Source: Bacteroidales bacterium | GTDB taxonomy: Bacteria; Bacteroidota; Bacteroidia; Bacteroidales; UBA932 | Reading direction: 5' to 3' | Assembly (NCBI GenBank): GCA_012728975.1 | Contig: JAAYDZ010000015.1 | Location: 1 to 41,619, forward strand | Length of the DNA stretch: 41,619 nt | Shown: positions 3,159-16,209 of the stretch, piece after piece | Layout: the number at the start of each line of letters is the position of its first letter | Numbering within the stretch: the first letter of the stretch is position 1 | Notes under the pieces: model-generated | Seen by the model: only the letters and a program-made list of their open reading frames with translations | Databases searched by the model: none | What the model was told of the DNA's origin: nothing | Position numbers and translations under genes: made by a program

Positions 3159-3264
3159 GTTAAGTTTTTTGGAAAACATAATGTCATTGAATAGTTATAA
3201 AAACTAAATATTAGGTCTCTGGGGGGGGTAGTTGACTTCCCTTCACCCATCCACTAGGAGGGAT

Positions 3265-3341
3265 GCAATGAGCAATGAGCAATTAAGAATTAATAGCCGG
3301 ATAAAATGCTGAAGGCCAATGGCCAAGAGCAAAGAGCCAAC
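3265..3341. repeat. Degenerate heptanucleotide array A
   Basis: Eleven consecutive 7-nt units in unbroken phase, starting GCAATGA, GCAATGA, GCAATTA, AGAATTA and ending GGCCAAT, GGCCAAG, AGCAAAG, AGCCAAC. It begins 18 bp beyond the LRR gene's stop codon, read in the direction of that gene. Bases 3285-3298 (AAGAATTAATAGCC) recur exactly, on the opposite strand, in array B at 8653-8666. No reading frame is maintained. Function unknown. Confidence 0.75.
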
Positions 3342-3359: not shown

Positions 3360-4808
3360 TTAATCGCTGCCTGGATAGGGGTTGTCTTCACTGTCCATTA
3401 CCTTCCAGTTTTTACCGGTGGCGATGCCTACTTGCGCGGTGGTGCACTTGTTTTGTTCATTGGAATCTTCGAGGTTGATTACACGAAAAAACCCTCCATA
3501 ACCTCCCGTACGCGTGGGCAGGCTATTAACCAACGCGGTCATATTATCGCCGGATATTTTATTACTACAGCAGTACAGATTCTTCAACGCAGTATTATTG
3601 CTGACATCAAGCGAGGTGAGTTGGTTGGCAAAACACTCCAAGTACGTCAACGCGGTATTCTTGCTTACATCAAGCAAGGTAAGTTGGTTTTGATGGCATT
3701 GCAACCACGTCAACGCGGTGTTACTGCTTACATCAAGCACCTTGAGAGAGTTGTTTTGACAGCTCAATGTCGTCAACGCGGTATTGTTGCTCACATCAAG
3801 CGAAACAAGTTGGTTTCGAACGCATTCCAGCCTCTTCAACGCTGTTTTGTTGCTTACATCAAGCGAGGTGAGTTGGTTACCGTGACAGTACAGATACTTC
3901 AACGCCTTGTTATGGCTAACGTCAAGCGCTTTAAGAGAGTTGTAGGAACACCACAGCTGCGTCAACGCGGTATTGTGGCTTAAATCAAGCGAGGTAAGCC
4001 GGTTGTTAGCACAGTCCAAGGACGTCAACGCGGTGTTGCGGCTTACATCAAGGGAAGTGAGTTGGTTGACGTAGCAGTACAGTTCCGTCAACGCGGTATT
4101 CTTGCTTACATCGAGCGAGGTAAGTTGGTTGTCTCTACAGGACAAATACGTCAACTCGGTATTCTTGCTTACATCAAGCGAGGTTAGGTAGTTCTCTATG
4201 CAACGTAGATACGTTACCTTCCCATAAACGGTTACGGTTTGCGCACCAAGAAGGTAATCTACATCACTGCCAAACACGGTAACGGCTTCGCCTTCATCCT
4301 TCTTATCGTTGTTGTTGAGGTCTATCCATATATCGGGTTGGTCGTCAGCGGCGGCGTTAATCCGTAATGTTATTTTTTCTCCCACGTTTTTGGCGGTGGT
4401 GAGCGTCATCCTGACAGGCGCTTCACCTTTGGGCAGCGTGTAGGTAACGCCTTTGTATACAATAATGATAACGTCGCCCACTTCGGTAATGGTGAGGTTG
4501 GCGTCGCCGTCTTGACCGGGATTGCCTTGTTCACCTTGTTCACCTTTAGCCCCGTGCTTCAGTGTGATTTTGCTCCCATCGCTCATAGTGAGTTCGTAGC
4601 CACTCTTGTCAGCCAATTCCTTATACGACTGTACGCTAATCTTTTTATCCATAGCATCAACGAGTGACTTCATAGTGGCAAGTTCTCTCTCTTGCTCGGC
4701 AAGCTTGCTCTCTGATGCATCCAAGCGACGAAGGATATCGTCCAGGTCAACACATCCGGCAACCATAATCATCGCCACCAGAGTGATAAGTGTTAAAATT
4801 TTTTTCAT
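3360..4808 (-). CDS. Leucine-rich-repeat surface lipoprotein with collagen-like linker
   Basis: A 482-aa predicted lipoprotein with a signal peptide ending in the lipobox VAGC (Cys19). Residues 20-60 form a charged coiled coil. Residues 60-135 resemble the DUF4988-type N-terminal module of Bacteroidales surface proteins and contain a short collagen-like Gly-X-Y run (about 86-102). Residues 208-417 are ten 21-residue repeats of the form LTSLDVSxNTALTxLxCxxNQ, a BspA/internalin-like leucine-rich fold with a Cys at a fixed place in each repeat. Such proteins are exposed on the cell surface and often bind proteins or host components; the partner here is unknown. The start is fixed by the lipobox and by the tetranucleotide repeat just upstream. 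There is no operon partner. Heptamer array A lies just past the stop. Confidence 0.85.
   Translation of the reverse strand: MKKILTLITLVAMIMVAGCVDLDDILRRLDASESKLAEQERELATMKSLVDAMDKKISVQSYKELADKSGYELTMSDGSKITLKHGAKGEQGEQGNPGQDGDANLTITEVGDVIIIVYKGVTYTLPKGEAPVRMTLTTAKNVGEKITLRINAAADDQPDIWIDLNNNDKKDEGEAVTVFGSDVDYLLGAQTVTVYGKVTYLRCIENYLTSLDVSKNTELTYLSCRDNQLTSLDVSKNTALTELYCYVNQLTSLDVSRNTALTSLDCANNRLTSLDLSHNTALTQLWCSYNSLKALDVSHNKALKYLYCHGNQLTSLDVSNKTALKRLECVRNQLVSLDVSNNTALTTLSCQNNSLKVLDVSSNTALTWLQCHQNQLTLLDVSKNTALTYLECFANQLTSLDVSNNTALKNLYCCSNKISGDNMTALVNSLPTRTGGYGGFFRVINLEDSNEQNKCTTAQVGIATGKNWKVMDSEDNPYPGSD
3558..4187 (-). repeat. Ten in-frame 63-bp LRR-coding repeats
   Basis: Tandem 63-bp units encoding residues 208-417 of the LRR lipoprotein. 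The DNA of adjacent units is similar enough that unequal recombination could change copy number. The antisense strand is also partly open because of the repeat periodicity, which produces a false plus-strand frame. Confidence 0.85.
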
Positions 4809-4956: not shown

Positions 4957-4980
4957 ACTAAAGATTTTTCAATTGAAAGT

Positions 4981-5052
4981 GGTCCCTCAGGGATTCGAAC
5001 CCTGGACCCCAACATTAAGAGTGTCGTGCTCTACCAGCTGAGCTAAGAGACC
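4981..5052 (-). tRNA. tRNA-Lys (anticodon CTT)
   Basis: The minus strand folds into a full cloverleaf of 72 nt. The acceptor stem GGTCTCT pairs with AGGGACC (one T-G). There is a D-arm GCTC/GAGC, an anticodon stem CGACA/TGTTG around loop CTCTTAA (anticodon CTT, reading AAG lysine codons), and a T-arm CAGGG/CCCTG with the TTCGAAT loop. The 3' CCA is not encoded. The tRNA has its own consensus promoter and a strong hairpin terminator, so it is a single-gene unit. Confidence 0.95.
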
Positions 5053-8512: not shown

Positions 8513-8540
8513 AACTCTATTTTGCTGTTCTTTTGCTTAA

Positions 8541-8584: not shown

Positions 8585-8646
8585 TTCATAACTATCATTT
8601 TATCACCTAATATAGGGTGATTACTTTACATTTCTTCAAATAACCA

Positions 8647-8761
8647 GCTATTGGCTATTAATTCTTTATTCTTTATTACTAATTGCACCACCCACCTACT
8701 CCCTTCATACAGACTCAACCTGCAACTCGCAACCCGTAACCTGCAACCCGCAACCCGCACC
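8647..8761. repeat. Degenerate heptanucleotide array B (two blocks)
   Basis: Block 1 (8647-8702) reads GCTATTG, GCTATTA, ATTCTTT, ATTCTTT, ATTACTA, ATTGCAC, CACCCAC, CTACTCC. After a phase break, block 2 (8713-8761) reads ACTCAAC, CTGCAAC, TCGCAAC, CCGTAAC, CTGCAAC, CCGCAAC, CCGCACC. It begins 6 bp beyond the ugd stop. It shares a 14-mer with array A (8653-8666) and a 14-mer (8750-8763) and a 13-mer (8721-8733) with array C. The minus strand has four G3-4 tracts between 8733 and 8763. Confidence 0.8.
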
Positions 8762-8767
8762 CCGGCA

Positions 8768-10000
8768 TTAGTCTCTTCTGAATATATCTCTCGTATAAAC
8801 CTTGTCACGAACGTCATCCAGCACACTATCATATCGGTTTGCTATGATGGAATGACTTCTGGACTTGAATTCTTCAAGGTTGTTGACCACTTTAGAGCCG
8901 AAAAATGTAGTTCCATCTTTGAGGGCGGGCTCGTAAATAATGACCGTAGCTCCTTTTGCCTTGATACGTTTCATCACACCTTGAATCGAACTGTGACGAA
9001 AATTGTCGGAATTCATCTTCATGGTCAGGCGGTAAACTCCAATGATACATTCTCTCTCCCGTTGCTCATCATAAGCTGAATTGGCTACATAGTAACCTGC
9101 CTTTTCAAGTACCCTGTTGGCAATGAAGTCCTTCCTGGTTCTATTGGATTCCACTATCGCACGCATTAGATCCTGCGGCACATCTGCATAGTTTGCCAGC
9201 AATTGTTTGGTATCCTTCGGCAGACAATATCCTCCATAACCGAAAGAGGGGTTATTGTAGTAATCACCTATACGGGGATCCAGACTTACGCCACGGATGA
9301 TCTCGTGAGTATCCAGTCCTTTCATCTCTGCGTATGTGTCGAGTTCATTGAAGAAAGATACCCTGAGTGCCAGAAAAGTGTTAGCAAAGAGTTTGACCGC
9401 CTCAGCCTCCGTAAATCCCATAAAAATTGTCTCCACATTTGGTTTAAGGGCCGCTTCATCTAGAAGTGAAGCGAATCTACGGGCCGCCTCCATAAGTCCG
9501 GGATTGCTTTTATCCGTCCCTACAATTATACGTGAGGGATAAAGATTGTCATAAAGAGCCTTGGATTCGCGGAGGAACTCCGGTGAAAACATTATGTTGT
9601 CACAATTATATTTTTCGCGCACTTGTACTGTAAATCCTACCGGCACGGTACTCCTTATGACCATCATGGCATTAGGATTATGTTTTATCACGGTTTGAAT
9701 AACCGTTTCTACTGCGGAGGTATCAAAGAAATTGAGTTTGGAATCGTAATTGGTCGGAGCTGCTATTACCACAAAATCAGCATCTTTGTATGCTATTTCG
9801 GCATCTAGTGTTGCCGTAAGATCAAGATCTTGTTCAGCAAAATATTTCTCTATATATTCATCCTGAATGGGAGACTCTCTGCGATTGATCATTTCTACCT
9901 TTTCGGGAATGATATCCAATGCCACAACAGTGTGACGCTGGCTCAAAAGCGTTGCCATCGAAAGTCCGACATATCCTGTACCGGCTACTGCAATTTTCAT
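8768..10000 (-). CDS. ugd: UDP-glucose 6-dehydrogenase
   Basis: Oxidises UDP-glucose to UDP-glucuronate with two NAD+, for capsule or polysaccharide synthesis in the cytoplasm. I use the ATG at 10000 (410 aa, [12 protein letters not shown]...) rather than the TTG at 10021, because the Rossmann strand starts immediately and the ATG leaves 21 bp after the upstream gene. The NAD motif GTGYVG is at 7-12, and the catalytic Cys259 lies in [11 protein letters not shown]. It is the second gene of a two-gene unit with a UDP-glucuronate epimerase, so the pair converts UDP-Glc to UDP-GlcA and on to UDP-GalA. GDP-mannose dehydrogenase is the main alternative, but the partner gene favours UDP-glucose. Array B follows the stop. 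Confidence 0.88.
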
Positions 10001-10021
10001 ATCTGTTATCTTGTTTATCAA

Positions 10022-14030: not shown

Positions 14031-14069
14031 ACTTTGTTGATATTATCTGTTGATATGATTGTTAACATA

Positions 14070-14077
14070 CAAATATA
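14070..14077 (-). promoter_or_regulatory. -7 element for the YtxH operon
   Basis: Minus-strand TATATTTG, 39 nt before the ATG at 14030. There is no TTTG at -33. The intergenic region also carries the divergent C11 peptidase promoter at 14097-14104. Confidence 0.5.
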
Positions 14078-14096
14078 CAAATTATATTTTTTTCTG

Positions 14097-14104
14097 TACC
14101 TTTG
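14097..14104 (+). promoter_or_regulatory. -7 element of the C11 peptidase, leaderless arrangement
   Basis: TACCTTTG ends only 4 nt before the ATG at 14109 (CGCC between). Bacteroidetes transcription normally begins a few bases after this element, so the mRNA would start at or within the start codon. Confidence 0.6.
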
Positions 14105-14108
14105 CGCC

Positions 14109-15338
14109 ATGGAAAAAAGAGGATTTATTCGCATTTTGTCGCTTTTTGCGCTATTATTCTGTATTTCATCTTGCTCAATCACTTCTTGCAAAGAAAAGCC
14201 TGAAGATGAAAAGGTCAGATCAGTGCTTCTCTATATTAGTGCCAACAACAATCTTTACAGCTATGCTGAGGAGTGTATCCAAGATCTAAAAAAGGGCTAC
14301 ATCCCTCAATATCAAGATAAGAGCAAGATCCTACTCGTATTTTACCATACCCCGGGTAAAACACCCACCCTATCCAGGTACAGTTGCAATAAGGATGGAG
14401 TCGTGATCAGCGAGACCATTTGCATATATGAACAGGAGATGAACTCTTCACAAGTTAGTTCCTTTAGCCGCGTGGTGGCGGATGCAGAGCGCACTTACCC
14501 TGCTACCGAGCGCGGGCTAATCCTTTGGTCACATGCTACCGGATGGCTGCCGGAGGGCTATTACACCAATCCCCTGGATATGGCAGGAGATAAATCCTCA
14601 CAACCGGTCGAGGATCCCTATCGCTTTCTTGTAAAATCTAATGGGGATGAGCCTCTGCGGAAATCATTCGGCAGCGATAACAATAGTGAAATGGAAATCA
14701 CCGAACTGGCTGCCGCACTCACACATACTTACGAATTTATCCTCTTTGACTGCTGTCTGATGGGTGGCATTGAGGTGGCTTACGAATTTAAAGACAAGTG
14801 CGAATATATGCTCTTCTCCCCGACTGAAATACTTGCGGACGGATTCCCCTACCACAAGATGTTCAGCCCTATTTTCAATTTGGAAAACCGTGAAGAGGCC
14901 CTAAAACAGGTATGCTCAGACTATTTCGATATCTACGATGCCCAGACAGGCATCTATAGATCAGCTACCGTATCCATGGTTAAGTGCAGTGCACTTGAAG
15001 ATCTTGCCGGAGTCTGCGCATCCATCTACCGCAACAATCAGGACTCTATTCTCTCTATGGACGCATTCCCGCTCCAAATATACTACCGCTACAATAAGCA
15101 TTGGTATTATGATTTCGAGGATATTGTCTCCAGAATCGCTACTCCGGAGCAATATGTAGAGTTCAGAACAGCCCTCAACAGAGTTGTAGTCTATAAAGCA
15201 GCAACCGACATATTCCTCAATATTGACATTGAGAGATACAGCGGACTGAGTACCTATCTGCCACGTACCCGATACAAGATACTTAATGACTTCTACAAGA
15301 CTCTTAAGTGGAACATAGCCACCGGCTATGTGAAGTAG
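14109..15338 (+). CDS. Clostripain-related C11 cysteine peptidase lipoprotein
   Basis: A 409-aa secreted cysteine peptidase. I chose the ATG at 14109 over an upstream in-frame ATG at 14034, because it gives a proper lipoprotein signal (lipobox ISSC, Cys22) and the promoter element TACCTTTG lies just before it. The catalytic His142 is in LILWSHATGW and the catalytic Cys216 in LFDCCLMGG, matching the clostripain dyad. C11 enzymes typically cleave after Arg/Lys. It is probably surface-anchored, for protein breakdown, and is monocistronic. Heptamer array C starts one base after its stop. Confidence 0.9.
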   Translation: MEKRGFIRILSLFALLFCISSCSITSCKEKPEDEKVRSVLLYISANNNLYSYAEECIQDLKKGYIPQYQDKSKILLVFYHTPGKTPTLSRYSCNKDGVVISETICIYEQEMNSSQVSSFSRVVADAERTYPATERGLILWSHATGWLPEGYYTNPLDMAGDKSSQPVEDPYRFLVKSNGDEPLRKSFGSDNNSEMEITELAAALTHTYEFILFDCCLMGGIEVAYEFKDKCEYMLFSPTEILADGFPYHKMFSPIFNLENREEALKQVCSDYFDIYDAQTGIYRSATVSMVKCSALEDLAGVCASIYRNNQDSILSMDAFPLQIYYRYNKHWYYDFEDIVSRIATPEQYVEFRTALNRVVVYKAATDIFLNIDIERYSGLSTYLPRTRYKILNDFYKTLKWNIATGYVK

Positions 15339-15339
15339 C

Positions 15340-15486
15340 GGTGCGGGATACGCGTTGCGAGTTGCAAGTTGCGGGGTGCGGGTTGCAGGGTGTAGGATGA
15401 GTTAGGAGTTATGAGTGTGGAATATGAAGTGTGAAGTGTGGAGTATGAAGTGTGGAGTTTTGAGTTCTGAGTGTGGAGTTTTAAGG
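15340..15486. repeat. Degenerate heptanucleotide array C (21 units, unbroken phase)
   Basis: Twenty-one 7-nt units follow one another without a phase slip: first a GTTGCGG-like group (GGTGCGG, GATACGC, GTTGCGA, GTTGCAA, GTTGCGG, GGTGCGG, GTTGCAG), then transitional GGTGTAG, GATGAGT, TAGGAGT, TATGAGT, then a GTGGAGT/ATGAAGT-like group. Unit positions 4 and 6 are purines in all 21. The many TGA triplets at 7-nt spacing close all plus-strand frames, so the array is non-coding. It starts one base after the C11 peptidase stop and ends about 28 bp before the rplY -33 element. Confidence 0.9.
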
Positions 15487-15513
15487 AATTTTAACAAAAA
15501 AGGGTGAAATCCG

Positions 15514-15550: not shown

Positions 15551-15598
15551 TAAAAGGATCTGTTCCTTTTGGTGCAATGGGGTCCGGAAAGACCGGAC
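15551..15598 (+). promoter_or_regulatory. rplY mRNA leader with two hairpins
   Basis: AAAAGGA (15552-15558) pairs with TCCTTTT (15564-15570), and GTCCGG (15582-15587) pairs with CCGGAC (15593-15598) over a 5-nt loop. There is no U-tract after either, so they do not look like an intrinsic terminator. A structured leader on a ribosomal-protein gene may be a site for autoregulation (inference). Confidence 0.4.
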
Positions 15599-15627
15599 TG
15601 AGTAACACATTTTAACTTTTATACACA

Positions 15628-16209
15628 ATGAAACAGATTGAACTCAAAGGTGAGCTCAGACCCACCGGCAGTAAAGCAGATGTGAAAAGCATCCGCAGAG
15701 CAGGAAGAGTACCCTGCGTACTTTATGGAGAGGGCGTAGAGAATACCCCTTTCTCAGTTGATGCACAGGATTTGAAGGCTATTACCCACACTCCCAATTC
15801 CTACATCATCAACCTCAATATCGACGGAAAGAACCAACTCGCGATATTTCACGCGGTACAATACCATCCTGTGACTGACGAGGCTCTTCACGTTGACTTC
15901 CTCGCAATATCGGCTGACAAACCGGTAACCATTGATGTTCCCATTGTCCTTACAGGTAGTTCTGAAGGTGTAAAAATGGGTGGAAAACTCATGGTACACT
16001 CACGCAAACTCCGCGTTCGTGGCTTAATAGACGAGCTTCCAGACGAGCTTAAGATTGATGTTACACATCTGCAGTTGGGCAAACAGATTTATGCAGGTAA
16101 ACTTTCATTTGATAAAGTTCAGATCGTTTCCCCGAAAAACACTCTCATCTGTGCTGTCAGATTGACACGTTCAGCTATTGCTGCCGCCGCAGCTAAGGAA
16201 GAAGAATAG
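15628..16209 (+). CDS. rplY: 50S ribosomal protein L25/general stress protein Ctc
   Basis: A 193-aa long-form L25 (CTC type). The N-terminal half (MKQIELKGELRPTG...RAGRVPCVLYGEG) binds 5S rRNA, and the C-terminal beta domain (LAISADKPVTIDVPIVLTGSSEGVKMGG...) is the TL5/CTC extension. An alanine-rich tail, AIAAAAAKEEE, ends it. It is followed after 18 bp by pth on the same strand, a conserved pairing in many bacteria. It has its own promoter and leader. Confidence 0.95.
   Translation: MKQIELKGELRPTGSKADVKSIRRAGRVPCVLYGEGVENTPFSVDAQDLKAITHTPNSYIINLNIDGKNQLAIFHAVQYHPVTDEALHVDFLAISADKPVTIDVPIVLTGSSEGVKMGGKLMVHSRKLRVRGLIDELPDELKIDVTHLQLGKQIYAGKLSFDKVQIVSPKNTLICAVRLTRSAIAAAAAKEEE

Follow-up and report, generated by a model that had tools for sequence, protein, structure and literature searches.

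Degenerate heptamer arrays placed mostly behind stop codons in a Bacteroidales clade, with look-alikes in many phyla

Why should a run of seven-base units follow the stop codon of a gene almost without a gap? This question is raised by a 147-bp stretch at positions 15340-15486 of contig JAAYDZ010000015.1 from a Bacteroidales bacterium (41,619 nucleotides, analysed in full and called the window below), which is located between a gene coding for a C11 peptidase and rplY, the gene coding for ribosomal protein L25. We found that arrays of this kind lie mostly directly behind stop codons in one clade and have look-alikes in many phyla. As to origin, we favor, at roughly even confidence, the view that the clade harbors many degenerate, G-rich heptamer arrays, the present one among them, which originate and turn over within its short gene-to-gene spacers, being made by slippage and having no single sequence-specific function.

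A 21-unit array and its companions in the genome

Just as the original prediction had described, the 147 bp divide into 21 units of 7 nt in perfect phase. A single base (C) separates the TAG stop of the peptidase gene from the first unit. Identity of the stretch to its own shifted copy reaches 0.686 at lag 7, 0.647 at lag 14, 0.635 at lag 21 and 0.555 at lag 28, with all remaining lags from 1 to 30 between 0.21 and 0.34; the lag-7 value stands far above the best of 5000 dinucleotide shuffles (maximum 0.471, mean 0.320, standard deviation 0.039). The purines claimed for unit positions 4 and 6 are present in 21/21 units, and the claim that the array is non-coding likewise holds, because stops fall in all three frames and TGA recurs in 7 of the 21 units. 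The 3′ end of the array precedes the upstream region of rplY, and no known RNA family matches the array at E values up to 1. The original prediction further took the units to drift from one form to another along the array. The units do differ; however, several unit families within one spacer fit better than drift of one unit, because orthologous loci carry different families behind the same stop. By eye we distinguish F1 (GGKTRCG), F2 (TAGTRTG), F3 (AGTTYTG) and AT-rich forms (AATTAAG, AATAAAG and RGCYRTT), and in several spacers F1 or F2 adjoins the stop with AT-rich forms further 3′.

A search for further arrays in the genome had been put forward as a check, and the outcome is a second array in the window (Table 1) and many more elsewhere. 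With the array as query, a DNA search of its own genome, which is in 76 contigs and roughly 91% complete, gave 15 matches including the array itself (40 of 59 candidates scored), and each of these loci holds at least one 7-periodic stretch. We then surveyed 425 kb, comprising the window and 20 stretches from contigs with array matches, a choice that makes the array density therein a biased estimate. At a threshold of 0.66 this sample contains 27 arrays at lag 7, as against 0 to 3 at lags 4, 5, 6, 8, 10 and 11, and 15 at lag 9. Lowering the threshold to 0.60 yields 44 stretches, including a few weak ones and one AT-only microsatellite; three are mostly inside called open reading frames (ORFs), so that the stretches are largely intergenic. 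The microsatellite (L031 4434-4517) is long in genome G000 and short, at the same place, in G012. Nearly exact runs are few (L032 19574 and L035 1157), most arrays of the genome being degenerate. Beyond the detected arrays, the adjoining 60 bp on the 3′ side have a lag-7 identity of 0.40, compared with 0.27-0.30 at the other lags (14 excepted), and those on the 5′ side a smaller excess (0.307 against 0.24-0.27, again with 14 excepted); the detected ends therefore underestimate the extent of the arrays.

Placement and strand are both biased. Under strict detection (threshold 0.63, |G-C| of at least 5, 36 stretches) 18 of the 19 spacer-strand cases have the G-rich strand in the sense of the upstream gene, and 14 of these 18 start no more than 5 nt after the stop (some before it), 16 of them within 20 nt. 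At a threshold of 0.60, sense cases number 22/27 with |G-C| of at least 5 (44 stretches) and 25/34 with |G-C| of at least 1, of which 19/22 and 22/25, respectively, start within 20 nt of the stop. Classified by neighboring genes at 0.63, arrays are present in 11/154 spacers with both genes on the minus strand, 6/80 with both on the plus strand, 5/39 convergent and 0/34 divergent spacers, i.e. in 22/273 tandem or convergent spacers as opposed to none of the divergent ones. Among spacers of at least 40 bp the contrast is 22/108 to 0/31 (p 0.004), and at 0.60 two stretches do occur between divergent genes. Furthermore, TAG is the stop codon of 10/17 genes followed by arrays, compared to 83/329 called genes (Fisher p 0.0026). 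Some convergent gene pairs enclose two arrays in facing orientation; such array pairs are absent from the strand counts because their G-C cancels. For the motif counts given below we used a set of 28 arrays (threshold 0.63), leaving out those with |G-C| below 5, those formed by AT runs and those lying to more than 60% within ORFs.

Filled and near-empty sites at orthologous loci

Array matches occur in seven of 40 genomes of the genus (G000, G005, G012, G016, G019, G044 and G045). An rplY was detected in six of these, and these six stand closest to the genome under study, with 89-100% rplY identity as against 55-67% in the other 33; G012 lacks an rplY match, yet a 3.9-kb stretch of L036 has a match there at 84%. 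As the array genomes are thus the closest relatives, the arrays mark one clade, whose unrooted tree is G016, G045, ((G000,G005),(G044,G012)). Beyond the genus, matches were recovered in at least one of 16 relatives from the order (G039) and, at the level of the class, in at least 16/396 genomes (including the present one) and at least 14/199 genera, all lower bounds because the query is specific and two candidates were scored per genome.

Comparison within the clade reveals near-empty sites, with 1-16 bp behind the stop, where sister species hold arrays. At L036:8335 the spacer is 67 bp in G000 and 95 bp in G045, both filled by arrays, and 16, 16 and 15 bp in G044, G012 and G016, which are empty; at the empty sites a short A/T spacer follows the stop, and G000 has a similar one downstream of its array. 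At L036:10064 TAG directly precedes ATG in G045, while four other genomes carry arrays. The convergent spacer L036:4662 measures about 1 bp in G045 and holds facing arrays in G000 and G044 (part of the G016 stretch being masked here), and the spacer at L036:3857 ranges from 3 bp in G044 through 23 bp in G045 and 127 bp in G000 to 300 bp in G012. At the rplY locus, G000, G005, G016 and G045 carry arrays behind the same TAG, and G009, G042 and G011 have short array-free spacers. A gain of DNA directly behind the stop, with an ancestral-like spacer kept downstream, is suggested by one well-aligned locus (L036:8335), and three others are compatible with it. An overwriting front was rejected at L036:8335, as the spacer resembling the 16-bp empty-site spacer persists downstream of the array in G000. 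Unit families also change: behind the same gene at window position 8513, F1 units are found in G000 and G005 and F2 units in G016, and AGTNTRT-like units at L034:4037 number 18 in G016, whereas each of the other five genomes has about 1 to 4, as counted by eye. Turnover of units inside a preserved phase, as originally proposed, is thereby supported.

The same loci bear on three other accounts of the array. That it results from misassembly of a genome fragmented into so many contigs is scarcely credible, given orthologous arrays behind the same stop in G005, G016 and G045. Selection on spacing, which the original prediction had offered as one cause of the preserved phase, finds no support because spacers with arrays vary widely between orthologs (67/16/16/95/15 bp and 193/82/80/3/57 bp), while some array-free spacers, such as L034:6793, keep their length (97/97/97/98/97/98), although others, such as L031:9592, vary as well (117/71/71/146/125/71). 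Finally, the arrays could be functional elements of the 3′ untranslated region under selection, either as a tract for antisense Rho loading or as an insulator, given a C-rich, G-poor opposite strand, or as a terminator hairpin where two arrays face each other. The strict sense count fits such a role, as do the folding of the antisense strand, weak (-8.1 kcal/mol over 147 nt) yet better than that of shuffles (z -2.6), and the long hairpin, with one internal mismatch, predicted for one facing pair between convergent genes (-44.3 kcal/mol, z -7.9). Yet neither sequence nor length is conserved, orthologous loci manage without arrays, and sister species carry them at the very junction where in G045 the stop abuts the next start codon, a place at which a terminator would cut the operon. 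Hence, we regard a selected element of this type as unlikely.

The G012 spacers at the L036:3857, L036:4662 and L031:746 sites are 300, 539 and 1112 bp long and contain DNA that none of the other compared genomes has; insertions may be tolerated at arrays.

Shared polarity and the origin of the arrays

We then examined look-alikes in other organisms. A pattern of three GTTRCGR units was found in at least 117 stretches (contigs, one genome per species), and the matches listed (80 titles) span Saprospiraceae, Flavobacterium, Chloroflexota, Desulfobacterales, Planctomycetes, Cloacimonadota, Pseudoalteromonas, Vibrio and others; another 37 stretches came from viral contigs. Full units numbered three in 68 cases, four in 46, five in six and more in few, the search pattern itself having required three. 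For the study of placement, 21 of the 117 cross-phylum arrays were set aside as overlapping ORFs and 95 of the remaining 96 (85 loci) had both neighbors, arrays within 300 bp of a locus end being dropped and not counted. Two further sets were assembled: arrays of other units at the same loci (45 arrays at 25 loci, what remained of 85 after removal of 25 within ORFs, 12 with low skew and 3 lost for other reasons) and arrays at the viral loci (50 arrays at 22 loci, what remained of 105 after removal of 44 within ORFs, 6 with low skew and 5 lost for other reasons). Among the matches listed, the 5′ end of the G strand is the one nearer an ORF in 72/95 cross-phylum arrays (p 5e-7), 33/45 other-unit arrays (p 0.0025) and 36/50 viral-locus arrays (p 0.0026), p values that are indicative because neighboring arrays are not independent and the ORF calls are crude (greedy longest ORF, ATG start). 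In the same order of sets, the agreement is 31/39, 16/17 and 15/19 in stop-start contexts, 24/31, 7/13 and 10/17 in start-stop contexts and 13/15, 4/4 and 8/8 between two stops; divergent (start-start) spacers show no polarity (4/10, 6/11 and 3/6). When the strand of the other-unit set is picked by purines instead, 32/43 agree, with 5/6 between two stops. Pooled by G strand, convergent spacers among the matches listed follow the polarity in 25/27 cases, and since both neighbors of such a spacer are stops, avoidance of promoters is not the whole cause. A universal RGTT core was tried and proved too weak: at least half of the units carry RGTT in 14/85 other-unit arrays, against 7.4 expected from column permutation.

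This polarity is what one would expect if a process anchored at the stop inserted or extended heptamer blocks at the gene edge, repeatedly and with fixed strand polarity, such that blocks stack behind the stop and each begins with TAG. Besides the cross-phylum and convergent counts (including those with the strand chosen by purines), the filled and empty sites at L036:8335 and the excess of TAG stops among array genes speak for it, as does a T preceding the first unit of AGTT runs in 13/26 instances against 4/31 internal units, a sample that includes orthologous loci and is not independent. On the other hand, this sample of TAG heads is small and includes sites at the gene's own stop, divergent spacers lack the polarity, homogeneity of the units points to no growth pole, and there is no candidate enzyme, neither the reverse transcriptase nor the Y1 transposase family being distributed like the arrays. 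We consider writing of this kind improbable on balance, though less so than a selected 3′ element. In its broadest form, the proposal would make the Xanthomonas, Nostoc and Beggiatoa repeats discussed below and the present array products of one hitherto unrecognized polar process, common to many phyla and independent of the unit, which would place heptamer blocks at the edges of ORFs, always in one strand polarity; this too we put forward very tentatively.

The enzyme families were searched for in the seven array genomes, which are 51 to 91% complete: reverse transcriptase (PF00078) has no match in five and Y1 transposase (PF01797) none in six, both including the present genome. With matches confined to two and one of these genomes, respectively, an origin from a retroelement or a REP-associated tyrosine transposase (RAYT) was rejected. 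Across the genus, 26/33 array-free genomes have a match to Y1 transposase (PF01797, E up to 0.001), as opposed to 1/7 array genomes. A conveyor-belt model, in which the youngest units adjoin the stop, was rejected too, as homogeneity shows no pole.

We return to gain and loss by slippage, which we posit would proceed as follows. New DNA would first appear just 3′ of a stop codon, upstream of a retained spacer that resembles the ancestral one; thereafter, as the orthologous loci show, the number and family of units change fast, with the 7-nt phase kept inside blocks. Units would probably be added and lost in 7-nt steps via slipped-strand mispairing during replication or repair, no dedicated mobile enzyme being needed and the resulting array having perhaps no single sequence-specific function. 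The biased placement and strand, by which the 5′ end of the G strand tends to the ORF edge, might in part result from purifying selection on RNA, if a G-rich strand is tolerated behind stops and not before starts. In favor of this scheme we count the periodicity and genome-wide recurrence of the arrays, the excess at lag 7 over the other lags, the intergenic position, the near-empty sites in sister species, the change in copy number at L034:4037, the lack of reverse transcriptase and Y1 transposase matches in most array genomes and the restriction to tandem or convergent spacers at a threshold of 0.63.

Several observations weigh against this scheme. Simple slippage predicts neither the polarity nor the pile-up of sense cases within 5 nt of stops (14/18), and purifying selection on RNA leaves a pile-up at zero distance unexplained. 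Nor does simple slippage predict the pattern at L036:8335, which needs at least two changes because of the way in which filled and empty sites are distributed on the unrooted tree. Owing to other indels, spacers do not differ in total length by exact multiples of seven. Looser detection weakens the strand bias, with 5/27 or 9/34 cases being antisense. A growth point sought via the homogeneity of array ends was not found in 29 clade arrays (5′ end higher in 13, 3′ end in 15) and 61 cross-phylum arrays (20 and 31, respectively).

Known heptamer repeats and other features of the window

The short tandem repeats (STRR) of cyanobacteria are intergenic heptamer arrays. Mrazek et al. are said to have reported in 2007 that heptamers are the commonest unit of long simple sequence repeats in most genomes; the arrays studied here share that period, but most of them are degenerate.

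The original prediction knew of no established counterpart in this group, which goes too far in view of the TAACTGA arrays described in five Bacteroidetes (MacGregor 2015, PMC4679880), and outside the group G-rich heptamer arrays with the same placement are known from Xanthomonas and Nostoc (Rehm 2015, PMC4692102). In the latter paper, the units are GGGAATC and GGGGA(C/T)T, mostly intergenic, lying nearer the 5′ neighboring ORF whatever its orientation (28 versus 160 nt on average in Xanthomonas, with Nostoc similar); they form inverted pairs, vary in copy number between relatives and are under-represented between divergent ORFs. The arrays reported here resemble them in being G-rich, intergenic and of seven-base period, in the placement of the G strand, whose 5′ end is close to an ORF and whose 3′ end is far, in their inverted pairs and varying copy number, and in their scarcity between divergent ORFs. 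Unlike them, the unit families are degenerate and mixed, with GGGNATC in 0/28 arrays, and sense orientation predominates, whereas in Xanthomonas both strands are about equally used. A G-quadruplex element like that proposed for Xanthomonas and Nostoc would account for G-richness and placement; a canonical G3 quadruplex motif is nevertheless present in 0/28 arrays of this genome and in 18/117 cross-phylum arrays among the matches listed. We thus regard such an element as very improbable here, and quadruplex formation is unlikely as a common cause.

The TAACTGA repeats, according to MacGregor 2015, occur in Beggiatoaceae, Cyanobacteria and the five Bacteroidetes, are mostly intergenic and mostly forward before start codons, the largest single group ending 1 nt upstream, and some sets are split by related heptamers. 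They too are mostly intergenic heptamer arrays, but have one fixed unit and lie mostly before starts instead of behind stops, as most of ours do. Taken on the other, G-richer strand (TCAGTTA), their 5′ end would be at the ORF edge, which suggests the same polarity; TCAGTTA itself is found on the G strand of 0/28 arrays of this genome. The two sets of repeats are not joined in the available parts of either paper, and searches of open-licence papers gave no general account of such arrays. Heptamer arrays have been described separately, with quadruplexes proposed in Xanthomonas and Nostoc and translation control in Beggiatoaceae; the present arrays belong to a kind already known, here degenerate, made up of several unit families and devoid of quadruplex motifs. 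As the clade combines the same placement with changing units, lack of quadruplex motifs and near-empty and filled sites in sister species, it becomes testable why the period is seven bases and why gene ends are chosen.

Table 1. Coordinates of the arrays and adjoining genes in the window
Feature	Position	Strand	Remarks
Degenerate heptamer array, 21 units	15340..15486	+	lag-7 signal spans about 15334-15491
5′ block of the array, GGTTGCG/GGGTGCG-like units, family F1	15340..15395	+	grouped by eye
3′ block of the array, AGTGTGG/AGTATGA/AGTTYTG-like units, families F2/F3	15396..15486	+	grouped by eye
TAG stop of upstream gene, anchor of the array	15336..15338	+	
Upstream gene, Peptidase_C11 (clostripain family)	14034..15338	+	Pfam E 2.6e-35
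Downstream gene, ribosomal protein L25 (rplY)	15628..16209	+	Pfam E 4e-25
Second heptamer array, F1 units	8716..8764	-	follows the TAA stop of gene 8768-10021 (-) directly and in the sense of that gene
Gene upstream of second array, UDP-glucose/GDP-mannose dehydrogenase family	8768..10021	-	
AT-rich degenerate heptamer stretch, AATAAAG-like	8635..8704	-	further 3′, in the same spacer as the 8716-8764 array

Several minor features of the window were also recorded. The leader of rplY at 15552-15609 is conserved across 21 aligned members of the genus (21 of 30 fetched rplY loci used) and has two predicted hairpins, with changes on both sides in 4/18 predicted pairs (one pair in 9/21 sequences); without an Rfam match at E up to 1, it is possibly an undescribed ribosomal-protein leader. 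An AT-rich, heptamer-like spacer stretch at 3252-3299, GCAATGAGCAATTAAGAATTAATA, is perhaps an aged array. Tandem repeats of 63/189 bp at 3575-4184 fall within the ORF at 3360-4808 (minus strand), which probably encodes a repeat protein, and a tRNA gene is located at 4980-5052 on the minus strand.
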